Assembly: GCF_026625745.1 (NCBI RefSeq)
Contig: NZ_CP113061.1
Location: forward strand, 2,195,501 to 2,259,500
Reading direction: 5' to 3'
Length of the DNA stretch: 64,000 bases
Origin: Asticcacaulis sp. SL142
Lineage (GTDB): Bacteria; Pseudomonadota; Alphaproteobacteria; Caulobacterales; Caulobacteraceae
Shown here one piece after another: positions 56,440 through 63,671 of this stretch. Position 1 is the stretch's first letter, and each line of letters begins with the position of its first letter. Position numbers and translations under genes: made by a program. The notes below the pieces were generated by a model. The model was not told where the DNA came from. It worked only from the letters and a program-made list of their open reading frames with translations, and did no database searches.

Positions 56440-57720
56440 TTACTCCCAGAATTCGGCGTTTTCCGGTATCCGGTTAAAGGCCACCTTCGCGCCGACAAAA
56501 CCATGCACCTTGGTGCGCGGCCCGATGGTGACGGCGTCCTTGCCGAATTTCTGATTTAACCCGTCCAGCGCCTTAAGCACCAGCATGTGGCGCGCATCTT
56601 CGGCCCCTTCCGGCGTCCAGCCAAACAGATCAGGCGGCAGATCGGCCGGTATGACGCGCGTACAGGTGATCGAGACCTTTTTCACGCGCGGGCTGTTCAG
56701 TTTGGCCGCACAGTGCCGCCACAAGCCGTCCATGACCTCAATCATCCGAAAACTGTCGGCGGTAACATCGAAATGGGCCTCGGCCTGAGCGCGGCCATCA
56801 CCCCGGTCGGCGCGGATCGACAGATGTAAGCCCCCGCATTTATAGCCCATGCGCCGCAGCCGCGACCCGCATTTGGCCACCAGCCGCCGGGCCACCCCGC
56901 GCGCCGCCTCAATCGGGCGCAGATCGGACGCCAGTACATGGGAATGGCTGATCGATCCCCGGACGGTATCCATCTCCGGCGGGTCAATGCCGTGCAGGCT
57001 GTACCAGAAATTATCGCCGCCGATCCCGCCCCAGATCTGACGCAGACGTGGCGCGGGCAAGGCGTAGAGTTCCGCCACGGTGAACACGCCCGCCTTGTTC
57101 AGCCGCAGGTTCATCGAGGCCCCCACCCCCGGCAGGTCGTTCAGCTTCAGATCCAGCAACTTCCCCGGCAAGTCGTCCTGCCTAAGCACGGTCAGCCCCA
57201 ACGGTTTGACGATATCCGCCGCGGTCTTGGCCAGCATCCGTGACGGCGCAATCCCGATAGACGACCTCAGACATTCGCCGATATTGGCCATGATATTTTG
57301 TTGAATCCGGTAGCCCAAAGCTTTAGCTGCCGCCTCATGGCGTTGCCCCATCGTCAGTCGGCACGCGACCTCATCAATCGAGCAGACCTTTTCGATTGGC
57401 AAAGTGCGATCAACCTCTTCCAATATGCGGTTATGCACCTGAACATAGCGGTCCGGCCGTGCCTCACGAATCTGGATCGCCGGACACAGCGCCCGCGCCT
57501 CCCTGACACTGGTGCCGGTTCTAATCCCCAGCGCCTTGGCTTCATAGCTGGCGGCAATGGCTGAGGTATAGTCCGAGGTCACCGGCACGACAATCATCGG
57601 ACGGTTACGCAGGCGCACGTCATCCTGCTGCTCGACACTGGCGAAATAGGAATTCATGTCGAGATATAACCAGTTGAGGTTACTCGAATTTATGTCGTCT
57701 TCGGGGCTGGCTGCGGGCAT
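56440..57720 (-). CDS. SOS-regulated Y-family DNA polymerase
   Basis: A 426-residue Y-family translesion polymerase. The palm has the first catalytic acid in YLDMNSYFASVEQQ and the second pair in VCSIDEVACRL. It carries thumb HhH-like LNDLPGVGASMNLRLNKAGV and a little-finger domain (YKCGGLHLSIRADRGDGRAQ; TIGPRTKVHGFVG). It is not a close match to DinB or UmuC by eye, and an insertion (residues about 130-160) is present. The ATG at 57720 has AAAGG 9 bases upstream. A SOS box overlaps its promoter. Confidence 0.88.
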   Translation of the reverse strand: MPAASPEDDINSSNLNWLYLDMNSYFASVEQQDDVRLRNRPMIVVPVTSDYTSAIAASYEAKALGIRTGTSVREARALCPAIQIREARPDRYVQVHNRILEEVDRTLPIEKVCSIDEVACRLTMGQRHEAAAKALGYRIQQNIMANIGECLRSSIGIAPSRMLAKTAADIVKPLGLTVLRQDDLPGKLLDLKLNDLPGVGASMNLRLNKAGVFTVAELYALPAPRLRQIWGGIGGDNFWYSLHGIDPPEMDTVRGSISHSHVLASDLRPIEAARGVARRLVAKCGSRLRRMGYKCGGLHLSIRADRGDGRAQAEAHFDVTADSFRMIEVMDGLWRHCAAKLNSPRVKKVSITCTRVIPADLPPDLFGWTPEGAEDARHMLVLKALDGLNQKFGKDAVTIGPRTKVHGFVGAKVAFNRIPENAEFWE

Positions 57721-57741
57721 GTTCTTGCACCTTTCAATTCG

Positions 57742-57772
57742 GAACATATCAAGAACATTTAAATAATGTCAA
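57742..57772 (-). promoter_or_regulatory. SOS (LexA) box and promoter of the Y-family polymerase
   Basis: On the minus strand a GTTC-TTGATAT-GTTC box (57756-57742) matches the alphaproteobacterial GTTC-N7-GTTC LexA site. A TTGACA -35 (57772-57767) lies upstream, and the -10 (ATATGT or TATGTT, 17-18 bases later) falls within the box. LexA binding would therefore block the polymerase promoter. Confidence 0.85.
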
Positions 57773-59927: not shown

Positions 59928-59959
59928 AACCCCGTCATCTTCGGATGGCGGGGTTTTTT
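59928..59959 (+). terminator. Terminator after rplT
   Basis: AACCCCGTCATC pairs with GATGGCGGGGTT around a TTCG tetraloop, followed by TTTTT. It begins 23 bases after the rplT stop and separates rplT from the Ntn-hydrolase unit. Confidence 0.9.
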
Positions 59960-60041: not shown

Positions 60042-61337
60042 GTGACCAGCGAAGTATTACTGATGAATCTTGAGGCCGTCGTTATGGGGGCCGACAGCGC
60101 GGTCACCATTTCTGACGGCGAGGCATATCGTGTCTCGCAATCCGGCGTCGAAAAGATCTTCGTCATCGATGACAGCGGGCCGGTAGCCGCCATGATCTAT
60201 GGCGGTGGCGATTTCGGGGGCTTGCCGTGGAAGACAGTGTTCGGTCAGTTTAAGCTTCAGCACACACCCGATATCGGCTCGGTCAAGGCCTATGCTAAGG
60301 CGATGATTGCGGGCCTGTCCGACGTATCGGGACTGGGCCTGACGCCCCATGCCAACGCCGAACAGCAGAGTTTTTCCGTCTATATCCGTGGCTTTCTGCT
60401 CGATTACGCGGCGGGTATGGTCAAGCTGGGCTGGGAGTTCGCCCGTCCCGTCAATACCGATATCGCCACACGGGCCTTAAGCGCTCTGCGTGAGGATATC
60501 CTGTTTGAGGCGGTCGATCCGATCACGGCCACGGATCACACGGGCAAGACCCGCGATCCCCTGCCCCGCCGCCGGATCGAGGCTGGGCAAGCCCTGACCG
60601 ACTACATCTATGCCCATATCGGCACTACTTTAAGCGAGGAAATGGGCCGCATTTTTGAGGGCGCTCAGTACCCGGAATCGCTGGTGCGAGAGGTGCTGAA
60701 ACTGGCCGCCGAATCCCTGCTACTGGAGTGGCTGCCGGAACATACCTATGGCTATACGACCGGGCTGGTGATCGCCGGTTTCGGGGCCGCCGATGCCCTG
60801 CCCGCCATGGTGTCGATGGAGTTTATCGGTGCGTTTGGCGGCACGCTTAAATACCGCATATTGCGCAGCGACAGCCCCAGTGCGGCCTCAGAGCCGGTTA
60901 TTGTTGAAACCTATGCCCAGGATGATCTGACGCGCGCCTTCCTGACCGGGGCCATGCCGGAATATGAGCACCACGCCCTGCACGCCACCGAAGATATCCT
61001 GCTGGCGGTGATCAAAGAAATCGGCGGCACCATCGGCCAGACCAACCGCAAACTGTCAGATGAGTTGGTGAAAACCTTGCGCCCCATCGCCCAAATGGCC
61101 CCGCACGCTGGGCTGCATGTGGCCCGCATGGAACGCTGGCACCGGGTAAGCTCCAAGCTGGGGCCATTGCTGGATTCAGCCAATGCCGGTATCTTAGCCG
61201 ACTATGCGCAAAAGTTCATGGAATTGCCCGTGATCGAGCATGAACTGATGAAAGAGTCGAGCGTGGCGCGCCCGATCTCGATCCTCAGCATGGAACGCGG
61301 CCGCTATCAGACCTATCGTGACGGAGTGAAGTCATGA
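60042..61337 (+). CDS. Proteasome-like Ntn-hydrolase protein
   Basis: A 431-residue protein. Residues 1-70 follow the plan of proteasome beta/HslV subunits: MTSEVLLMNLEAVVMGADSA, then VEKIFVIDDSGPVAAMIYGG. After removal of the start Met, Thr1 is exposed, and the acid in GADS falls at position 17 (as Asp17 of proteasome beta); Lys37 would correspond to Lys33. The remaining 350 residues, largely helical, are not recognised. The start is GTG with GGGGG about 8 bases upstream. It overlaps the next gene by 4 bases. A threonine protease role is inferred and untested. Confidence 0.75.
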   Translation: MTSEVLLMNLEAVVMGADSAVTISDGEAYRVSQSGVEKIFVIDDSGPVAAMIYGGGDFGGLPWKTVFGQFKLQHTPDIGSVKAYAKAMIAGLSDVSGLGLTPHANAEQQSFSVYIRGFLLDYAAGMVKLGWEFARPVNTDIATRALSALREDILFEAVDPITATDHTGKTRDPLPRRRIEAGQALTDYIYAHIGTTLSEEMGRIFEGAQYPESLVREVLKLAAESLLLEWLPEHTYGYTTGLVIAGFGAADALPAMVSMEFIGAFGGTLKYRILRSDSPSAASEPVIVETYAQDDLTRAFLTGAMPEYEHHALHATEDILLAVIKEIGGTIGQTNRKLSDELVKTLRPIAQMAPHAGLHVARMERWHRVSSKLGPLLDSANAGILADYAQKFMELPVIEHELMKESSVARPISILSMERGRYQTYRDGVKS

Positions 61338-61612
61338 ACCTTAGTGCCATCATGAAATCTGCCCAAAAGCTGACGGCCACGCGCAAGATCCTGCGTGAAC
61401 TGATGCGCGAGAGCGGCCCGCACGAGGCCGTGCGCCTGATGCCCGCCAAACGCCGTCTCCGGGACATGTTCCGCAAGAAAGAATCACCCTTTGCCCTAAA
61501 ATCGGGGCAGGTTGAAGTGTGGCTCGACGATATCCGCCAGCATCACCCGTCGTTTTTCGATGAGGCCAAGATGGAAAAGATCGATACAGAGAAAAAATCA
61601 AACGCGGCCTGA
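61334..61612 (+). CDS. Small basic protein coupled to the Ntn-hydrolase gene
   Basis: A 92-residue protein that I do not recognise. It is basic and helical (SAQKLTATRKILRELMRESG; RRLRDMFRKKESPF), followed by VEVWLDDIRQHHPSFFDEAK and a charged tail. The ATG overlaps the stop of the Ntn-hydrolase gene (ATGA), so the two are translationally coupled and probably work together. It may be an adaptor, inhibitor or substrate; nothing in the sequence decides this. Confidence 0.7.
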   Translation: MNLSAIMKSAQKLTATRKILRELMRESGPHEAVRLMPAKRRLRDMFRKKESPFALKSGQVEVWLDDIRQHHPSFFDEAKMEKIDTEKKSNAA

Positions 61613-61673: not shown

Positions 61674-63671
61674 ATGCCCCACAATCGTCGCACCCTGCTT
61701 AAGGCCGCCGCAGGCTTCGCTGCCTTTCCGGCCATTGCCCGCGCCCTAGATATTCCGGCAAAAGTGCGTACCGGCACAATCAAAGATGTCGAGCACATCG
61801 TCATCCTGATGCAGGAAAACCGCTCGTTCGACCACTATTTCGGGGCTATGAACGGGGTGCAGGGCTTTGGCGACCGCTTCCCCATCCCTGTGGCGCATGA
61901 CCGCACCGTCTTTGCCCAACCGCGTGAGGAGGATAAGACGCGTCTGATCGCGCCGTTTGCACTCAATACCGCCAAGGATTTCCGCCTGATGCGGGTCGAG
62001 GGCACGCCCCACAGCCTTAAGGATGCGCAGGACGCCTGGAATCACGGCCGCATGGATAACTGGCCGGCCGCCAAGCACAATCATTCGCTCGGCTATTTTA
62101 CCCGCGCCGACATCCCGTTCCAGTATGCGCTGGCCGATGCCTTTACGCTGTGTGATGCTTACTTTTGCGCCATGCATTCGGGCACCAATCCGAACCGGGT
62201 ATTCCACTGGGCCGGTAAAAACGTCGGCCCTAATGGCCCCGTTATCGACAACGGCTATGACGACATGAAGCACGATCCCAAAGGCCACGGCGGCTATGAC
62301 TGGACGACCTATCCTGAACGCCTGAGTGCCGCGGGTGTGTCGTGGCAGGTCTATCAGGACATGAAGGATAACTTCACCGACAACCCCCTCGTCGGCTTCA
62401 AGACCTATCGCGCTGCGGACAAAGCGACCGGTGGCAAGCTGGCTGAATTGGCGAAGCGGTCGGTGCGCACCCGCGATCTGGATAAGCTCAAAGAGGATGT
62501 GCTGGCGGGCAAACTGCCGCAGGTGTCATGGATCGTCGGCACGGCTGAGGGGTCTGAGCATCCGTCGACCTCATCACCCGCCCAAGGGGCCGATTATACC
62601 GCCAAGGTGCTTGATGCCCTCACCGCCAATCCTGAAGTTTGGGCCAAGACCGTTTTCCTGATTAATTTCGACGAAAATGACGGCTATTTCGACCATGTGC
62701 CGCCGCCCGCACCGCCATCCCTGGATGAAAACGGCACACCGCTCGGCTTTGCTGAAGGGGCGGAGCCCGAATATCATCAGGGCGACGATAAATATCGCAA
62801 CCGTCCTTACGGCCTTGGCCCGCGCGTGCCGATGTATGTGATCTCGCCGTGGTCAAAGGGTGGTTATGTCGCCTCAGAAGTGTTCGACCATACCTCGGTC
62901 ATCCGCTTTATTGAGGCCCGTTTTGGCGTATCAGAACCTAATATCTCCGCCTGGCGACGGGCCGTGTGCGGTGATCTGACCTCATGTTTCGATTTCAAAA
63001 CGCCCAATGACCAGCCGTTTTTTGCCGCCATGCCGCAAACCACGGAACTGGCCGACCGCGCCCGAAGCTTAAGCGGTGAGACCAAGCCGCAGGCGCCGGA
63101 AACTCTGGTTGCACCGGTTCAGGCACAGGGCCAACGGCCGCGCCGGACCACGCCCTATGACTTGGGGTGCGGTGTAACCGCTGATCGCCAGCTCAGCCTG
63201 ACCAATAATAGTCTCGCAGGGGCGGCTGTCTTTCATGTCTATGACATGGATAACCTGGCCGCCATTCCGCGCCGCTTTACGGTGAACGCCGGTAAGGCCG
63301 TCGCCATGCCGCTGAAAGATACCGTTAATCTGTGGATATCCGGCCCGAACGGGTTTTTCCGCCGGATCGAAGGGCAAGCCGCCTTCACCTGTGACTGGGG
63401 GCCAAAGGGACTGGAACTGCGTAATCTGACCAAAGCCCCGCTGACCGTCATTTTGCGCGACGAAGCCTACGGCGCCCCGGCCCAGACGATCGCCCTGACG
63501 CCGCAGGAAACCCGTCTGGTGACCGTTGATCTGGCCGCTAGCCATAACTGGTACGATCTGAGCCTGACTTCGGGTGCGAGTAAACTGCGCCTAAGCGGTC
63601 ATATCGAAGACGGCAAGCCATCCCTGTCTGATCCGGCAGGATTTGGCGCGGCCAGACTGGACCTGGCCTAA
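61674..63671 (+). CDS. plcN: Phosphocholine-specific phospholipase C, Tat-exported
   Basis: A 665-residue enzyme of the PlcN/PlcH type, which cleaves phosphatidylcholine to diacylglycerol and phosphocholine. A twin-arginine signal (NRRTLLKAAAGFAAFPAIAR) starts the protein. The catalytic core (about 40-440) has the hallmark HIVILMQENRSFDHYFG, and DAYFCAMHSGTNPNRVFHW, INFDENDGYFDHV and VISPWSKGGYVASEVFDHTS. Two C-terminal beta domains follow (about 465-665). The ATG at 61674 has AAGGA 8 bases upstream; 61665 is an alternative. Expression under phosphate starvation is usual, but no Pho box was identified. Confidence 0.93.
   Translation: MPHNRRTLLKAAAGFAAFPAIARALDIPAKVRTGTIKDVEHIVILMQENRSFDHYFGAMNGVQGFGDRFPIPVAHDRTVFAQPREEDKTRLIAPFALNTAKDFRLMRVEGTPHSLKDAQDAWNHGRMDNWPAAKHNHSLGYFTRADIPFQYALADAFTLCDAYFCAMHSGTNPNRVFHWAGKNVGPNGPVIDNGYDDMKHDPKGHGGYDWTTYPERLSAAGVSWQVYQDMKDNFTDNPLVGFKTYRAADKATGGKLAELAKRSVRTRDLDKLKEDVLAGKLPQVSWIVGTAEGSEHPSTSSPAQGADYTAKVLDALTANPEVWAKTVFLINFDENDGYFDHVPPPAPPSLDENGTPLGFAEGAEPEYHQGDDKYRNRPYGLGPRVPMYVISPWSKGGYVASEVFDHTSVIRFIEARFGVSEPNISAWRRAVCGDLTSCFDFKTPNDQPFFAAMPQTTELADRARSLSGETKPQAPETLVAPVQAQGQRPRRTTPYDLGCGVTADRQLSLTNNSLAGAAVFHVYDMDNLAAIPRRFTVNAGKAVAMPLKDTVNLWISGPNGFFRRIEGQAAFTCDWGPKGLELRNLTKAPLTVILRDEAYGAPAQTIALTPQETRLVTVDLAASHNWYDLSLTSGASKLRLSGHIEDGKPSLSDPAGFGAARLDLA

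Follow-up and report, generated by a model that had tools for sequence, protein, structure and literature searches.

The window, the whole 64,000-nucleotide stretch of Asticcacaulis sp. SL142 DNA that was analysed, carries a pair of genes for a predicted proteasome-like hydrolase and a small basic protein (Table 1). The enzyme ORF starts with GTG, its product opens M-T-S-E-V, and each of the two ORFs is preceded by a purine-rich, Shine-Dalgarno-like sequence, as read by eye. In the mature enzyme, Asp is residue 17, within GADS, and Lys is residue 37, within VEKIF, four positions beyond the canonical Lys33. The original prediction had described a proteasome β/HslV-like start, the lack of a propeptide and a unit of 431 and 92 residues coupled by ATGA; we indeed find these residues, with Thr directly after the start Met, and the unit is borne out by its ORFs and by their conservation across loci. 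The 431-residue enzyme finds no Pfam family at E ≤ 10, and hence no PF00227 match, and the 92-residue partner has a single Pfam match far below the family cut-off. NCBIfam and the 2023 PADLOC library hold no match for either protein. The enzyme matches PHROG 5990, a family annotated as function unknown (E = 1.1e-29). Across 11 aligned partner rows, Arg40 and Phe53 are invariant inside the conserved stretch, and Arg17 is invariant outside it.

Table 1. Features of the gene pair and its upstream region (window coordinates)
Feature	Position	Strand	Basis
Proteasome-like Thr-Ntn hydrolase (predicted), PMI-4-type, 431 aa	60042..61337	+	ORF call, fold model, PHROG 5990
Small basic partner protein, 92 aa	61334..61612	+	ORF call, purifying selection, strong matches only beside enzyme (149 genomes)
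ATGA overlap of enzyme and partner genes	61334..61337	+	Sequence
Thr2 codon (mature Thr1, predicted nucleophile)	60045..60047	+	T in 87/88 rows, S in 1/88; faces residue 1 of matched chains
Asp18 codon (mature Asp17)	60093..60095	+	D in 88/88 rows, partly forced by search pattern
Lys38 codon (Lys33 equivalent)	60153..60155	+	K in 88/88 rows
Helical insertion after H1/H2, residues ~94-239	60321..60758	+	Model secondary structure; limits by eye
Helical insertion between H3 and H4, residues ~303-381	60948..61184	+	Model secondary structure; limits by eye
Partner's conserved stretch KRRLRDMFRKKESPF	61448..61492	+	11-row alignment
Terminator-like hairpin after rplT	59932..59958	+	Hairpin scan, weak

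The enzyme is predicted to adopt an Ntn-hydrolase fold of the proteasome β type. In the model, strands S3 (residues 21-24) and S4 (30-33) lie five residues apart, helices H1/H2 are present (63-73 and 81-93), and later strands at 240-277 and 413-426 finish the proteasome fold around two helical insertions. The structural matches listed for the model are proteasome and Anbu chains, and the first aligned residue of the enzyme, Thr2, faces residue 1 of the matched chains; TM-scores are low (0.10-0.28 by query length, among the 50 matches listed). The single enzyme sequence finds no match among solved structures, and its profile mainly retrieves helical or designed proteins that align with the insertion helices, together with three weak proteasome β matches at the C-terminal strand (E 0.12-0.14). 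The predicted model and its structural matches thus place the enzyme within the Ntn-hydrolase superfamily. Fold, Thr as residue 1, lack of a propeptide, presence of a second such enzyme next to an HslV-like one and gene unit are the parts of the earlier interpretation that stand; what it took for about 350 unrecognised residues appears in the model as the rest of the proteasome fold plus the two helical insertions, and nothing we have seen points to the amidase-like enzyme with its own cofactor that it also considered.

Named genomes yielded 308 confirmed loci and viral contigs 101, and 80 of each were kept for analysis. They were fetched by peptide patterns, with ADS in both scans and MTxEV in the viral scan, so that Asp18 is partly forced. 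Thr2 was absent from the genome-scan pattern and is Thr in 80 of 80 loci from that scan; over the 160 kept loci, position 2 is Thr in 159 and Ser in one, the viral locus L186. The three residues singled out in the original prediction are conserved in an 88-row alignment that includes the window protein: position 2 is Thr in 87 rows and Ser in one, and positions 18 and 38 are Asp and Lys in all 88. The column presumed to correspond to the oxyanion Gly47 is less strict, with Gly in 59 and Asn in 23 of the 88 rows. Judged by the alignment counts, the residue pattern of the enzyme exceeds chance. A second copy in one genome (L019 in G069) reads ADV in place of ADS and has Arg at the Lys38 position, and is possibly a degenerate enzyme.

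Of 149 genomes sampled from the host's taxonomic family, 15 contain a relative, counting the window genome and one contig-end fragment. At the level of the phylum, a profile search gave a match in 10 of 398 genomes, and an earlier single-protein search in 17 of 398, several of them marginal partial matches. Matches were further found in 13 phage and 10 plasmid records, and 22 of 5426 E. coli genomes have partial DNA matches to a viral-contig member. One viral-contig copy (L165) has an early, altered C-terminus and is 390 aa long; a 402-aa ORF, perhaps a transposase, begins 59 nt further on. The Rhizobium leguminosarum copy (L267, CP090551) is split into a 358-aa ORF and a 60-aa ORF that carries the C-terminal strands.

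Fuchs, Alva and Lupas described 22 new proteasome-like families in 2021 (PMC8665760). Their survey lists PMI-4 (proteasome homolog with multiple insertions), for which its Table 1 counts 501 sequences at 90% identity; PMI-3 and PMI-4 both have insertions at two sites, after H1/H2 and between H3/H4, and in the available portion of the survey phage occurrence is given for PMI-4, not PMI-3 (PMC8665760). Judged by the published description of the group, whose reference sequence is HDY66466.1, the window enzyme fits PMI-4. It would thus not be new in itself, fitting a type listed in 2021 that the available text leaves uncharacterised. The original prediction had also envisaged a second proteasome-type enzyme alongside HslV, and the window's genome does contain a separate HslV-like gene with a PF00227 match (G000:C1:3015240-3015752). 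On the strength of this gene and of the missing PF00227 match of the enzyme, we reject the idea that the enzyme is an HslV duplicate.

We found that the enzyme gene nearly always has a small gene behind it. In 95 of 96 representative loci (98 minus two at contig ends), an ORF of 30 aa or more begins on the same strand within 60 nt of the enzyme stop. Since short ORFs arise by chance, stronger tests of the pairing were made. Using a crude gene caller, a small same-strand ORF comes next for 58 of 85 enzyme genes, compared with 91 of 466 control genes from the same loci. In 85 of 93 cases the nearest downstream ORF encodes a protein with a net basic charge. Cross-locus homology of downstream ORFs is seen in 67 of 96 loci versus 46 in a reverse-strand control, which itself holds real neighbours and shadow frames.

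Two partner types could be followed by profile. The YFP family (52-76 aa, motif Ser-x-x-Glu...Tyr-Phe-Pro) has members in Planctomycetota, Poribacteria, KSB1, Nitrospirae, a cyanobacterium, Methanosaeta and viral contigs, among others. Its first 16 seeds were picked by eye, and leave-one-out searches recover 19 of 19 members, every one above its 200 shuffles. Six partners came from loci of a pattern-free search, which covered 13 loci, one without a clean ORF (L230) and one interrupted (L235), and set aside the partial matches L231-L234 and L236-L241. Three of the six (L228, L229, L250) match the YFP profile clearly (E ≤ 1.7e-5) and one (L243) weakly (E 0.002); the profile matches neither the other two (L247, L249) nor the partner from the window. 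Across 246 genomes the YFP profile gave one match, a seed beside the enzyme, and overlooked the partners of G671 and G725, which direct YFP scoring recognises; its absence elsewhere thus reflects limited sensitivity. The window-type profile gave 12 matches in 149 genomes, 11 strong and one weak that contains a stop. All 11 strong matches lie directly behind the enzyme by coordinates. As 10 of them come from the window or from seeds of the profile, what this search tells us lies in the other 138 genomes, none of which has a strong match. Of the 15 enzyme-bearing genomes in the family, 11 have the window-type partner; different small ORFs follow the enzyme in three of the rest, and the fourth is the contig-end fragment. 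Second enzyme copies are likewise followed by different small ORFs or by a contig end, and some gammaproteobacterial partners are only 34-37 aa long (L163, L166, L180, L258).

Some observations would favour the view that the enzyme alone matters and that the small ORFs have nothing to do with it, being neighbouring genes or products of chance. Profile comparison joins none of the Caulobacteraceae, Parvularculaceae, YFP, gammaproteobacterial and other partner types (all probabilities ≤2.3%). Moreover, no convincing partner was seen at L107, at the Mesorhizobium copy L260, or at two of the 11 intact pattern-free loci (L244, L245), chance alone often produces short ORFs, and the reverse-strand control is positive as well. 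Yet the leave-one-out recovery, the lack of strong partner-profile matches away from the enzyme and the selection on the partner all speak against this view. We estimated dN/dS for 14 hand-picked gene pairs, which are not independent; in the 13 informative pairs, the enzyme's values span 0.03-0.17 and the partner's 0.06-0.43, the latter staying below 0.45 in all 13 and exceeding the enzyme's in 12. Both genes are under purifying selection. We therefore regard the chance-ORF view as very improbable, and the YFP and Caulobacteraceae types, at least, already contradict it: the two-gene unit is real and conserved. Within types, partners carry conserved short aromatic or Pro motifs. A looser aromatic-Pro motif outside the YFP set shows weak enrichment (12 of 74, shuffle mean 4.8, maximum 11 in 300 shuffles); its choice was post hoc and it was dropped. 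Modelling enzyme and partner as one read-through chain gives the partner block-mean pLDDT values of 53-88, a moderate local confidence, and no view of docking.

Our best reading, which we hold to be somewhat better than an even bet, is that the enzyme is a hydrolase dependent on Thr, which probably does not form a double-ring barrel and is controlled by a dedicated small partner. The analysis shows the predicted fold, the conserved catalytic residues, the gene pairing and the purifying selection on both genes; that the enzyme is a peptidase and binds the partner, how it assembles, which way the regulation runs and what the pair does in the cell are what we infer. The start Met is expected to be removed before Thr. 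Its removal would expose Thr1 as the nucleophile, which would work with Asp17 and the Lys33 equivalent. The long helical insertions are placed at the pore-loop and ring-ring faces, which argues against an HslV-like double-ring barrel, and the enzyme probably acts independently of HslU, either as a monomer or in a small assembly. The 92-residue partner would bind the enzyme as its dedicated companion, either as an adaptor that decides which substrate gets to the active site or, alternatively, as an inhibitor that holds the enzyme off until a trigger. Many Ntn hydrolases are amidases, and the enzyme could instead be a peptidase or amidase that works alone on a peptide or small molecule, in which case the partner would do no more than help it fold or assemble. 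β propeptides help proteasome assembly (PMC8665760), and the enzyme family has none, which is in line with such a role. However, the structural matches listed are proteasome and Anbu chains, and no Pfam family recurs in more than three of 110 neighbour proteins; we judge this alternative quite unlikely. The 110 proteins, from 33 loci, belong to 122 neighbours called in 34 loci, the other 12 (8 partner ORFs and 4 more, including all of L094) being set aside from the scan. The readings weighed here overlap in part, and their probabilities do not add up to one.

In Asticcacaulis, rplT is followed by the enzyme-partner unit in 8 of 25 genomes, by pheS directly in 10 and by a phospholipase gene in 6, and in one genome none of the probes was seen. 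That eight genomes of the genus share this position makes the unit a lineage feature and not a one-off insertion. The original prediction had placed it between rplT and pheS: it does lie behind rplT, but it does not abut pheS, since a gene for a phospholipase C-type protein intervenes (61674-63671; PF04185 and PF05506, with a Tat-like signal peptide by eye). A hairpin scan of the region gave three terminator-like sites versus 1.6 expected, and the hairpin after rplT weakly suggests that the unit may be transcribed on its own. The window also encodes a Y-family DNA polymerase-like protein (56440-57747, minus strand; PF00817 and PF11799).

Phage and prophage copies of the enzyme gene occupy accessory positions. 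The gene precedes holin and lysozyme in a Providencia phage, where an annotated 58-aa gene follows it, adjoins holin in a Stenotrophomonas phage, lies at the right end of the Streptococcus Javan85 record past the endolysin, and is carried by Streptococcus satellite phages. One E. coli prophage copy sits directly behind a helix-turn-helix gene and another between a methyltransferase region and an antiterminator gene; both are followed by an unannotated ORF (34 and 49 aa) with a Shine-Dalgarno-like sequence ahead. In one E. coli locus (L283, 4902-6305) the annotated start lies 33 residues upstream of the conserved Met-Thr, and the internal MTAE is probably the true start. Conflict involving phages or mobile elements would be the most likely biological role. 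A prophage-borne toxin-antitoxin-like or superinfection-exclusion module, in which the partner holds a harmful protease that is released upon infection by a competing phage, overlaps with the inhibitor form of our best reading. The helix-turn-helix neighbour, the positions beside holin and lysozyme genes or at a record's right end, the carriage by satellite phages and the higher partner dN/dS in 12 of 13 informative pairs are all consistent with it. Against it stand the absence of PADLOC matches for either protein, the finding that no PADLOC family matches more than two of the 110 neighbours (among the best 25 of 39 families), and the single chromosomal site in Asticcacaulis. We consider such a module possible, if doubtful.

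On plasmids, multiubiquitin and ThiF E1 genes are found within about 4 kb of the enzyme in one Mesorhizobium (L260) and three Rhizobium regions (L267-L269), the latter additionally holding a ClpP-like gene, and coordinates point to a fifth such neighbourhood in R. gallicum R602sp. Four other plasmid regions with the enzyme have no multiubiquitin or ThiF gene nearby; together, these nine regions cover the ten enzyme-bearing plasmid records except CP131057. Four of the five neighbourhoods are one orthologous locus (83-100% identical), leaving two independent arrangements, and because multiubiquitin itself occurs in 170 plasmid records, we treat the association as a lead and not a rule. A Multi_ubiq search of the window's genome gave no match, in a test whose control also matched nowhere. 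The two rhizobial arrangements count in favour of the idea that the small protein is the substrate, which a connectase-like enzyme would cut and/or ligate at a short motif, for example to tag other proteins. Connectase is a proteasome relative that works as a monomer and ligates proteins in a sequence-specific manner (PMC8665760), and the partners are short, mostly basic and share short motifs within types. No motif is common to all partner types, however, and the connectase-specific S3/S4 insertion is missing from the enzyme model, so that we think this idea unlikely.

In the incomplete open literature searched, we found no account of the enzyme-partner pairing, which appears to be undescribed there. 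According to the available part of the 2021 survey, its authors saw no genomic context hinting at a specific function (PMC8665760), leaving the large PMI-4 family without a functional clue; the conserved partner gene, which includes small ORFs unannotated in two E. coli prophage records, now provides a handle and makes co-expression and binding tests feasible. This would also bear on how proteasome relatives work outside barrels, and on whether phages make use of them. As a speculation to which we give a low probability, PMI-4 might be a two-component machine of an enzyme and an obligate, fast-evolving micro-partner that serves as a dedicated substrate or tag, with which mobile elements would modify or destroy chosen proteins and which would be coupled on rhizobial plasmids to a bacterial ubiquitin-like E1 system.

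We compared the window enzyme to known proteasome relatives. HslV, of about 175 aa, likewise has Thr at its N-terminus, Asp17 and a Lys close to position 33, whereas the window enzyme has 431 residues and no PF00227 match. The listed chains of Anbu (ancestral β-subunit) are 229-241 aa long and 10-15% identical, and the window enzyme differs from them by its two large helical insertions. Connectase is alike in being a proteasome relative acting outside a barrel, but, as far as the available description goes, it lacks H1/H2 and has a two-helix S3/S4 insertion, whereas our model has H1/H2 and no such insertion. PMI-4, as described in the available text, shares Thr1/Asp17/Lys33, the absence of a propeptide and the insertions after H1/H2 and between H3/H4, and is found in phages, Proteobacteria, PVC, Cyanobacteria and Euryarchaeota; a similarly broad spread is seen here (L054, L058, L091, viral loci and phages). 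That description comes without informative genomic context, whereas in our loci a small downstream gene is nearly constant.
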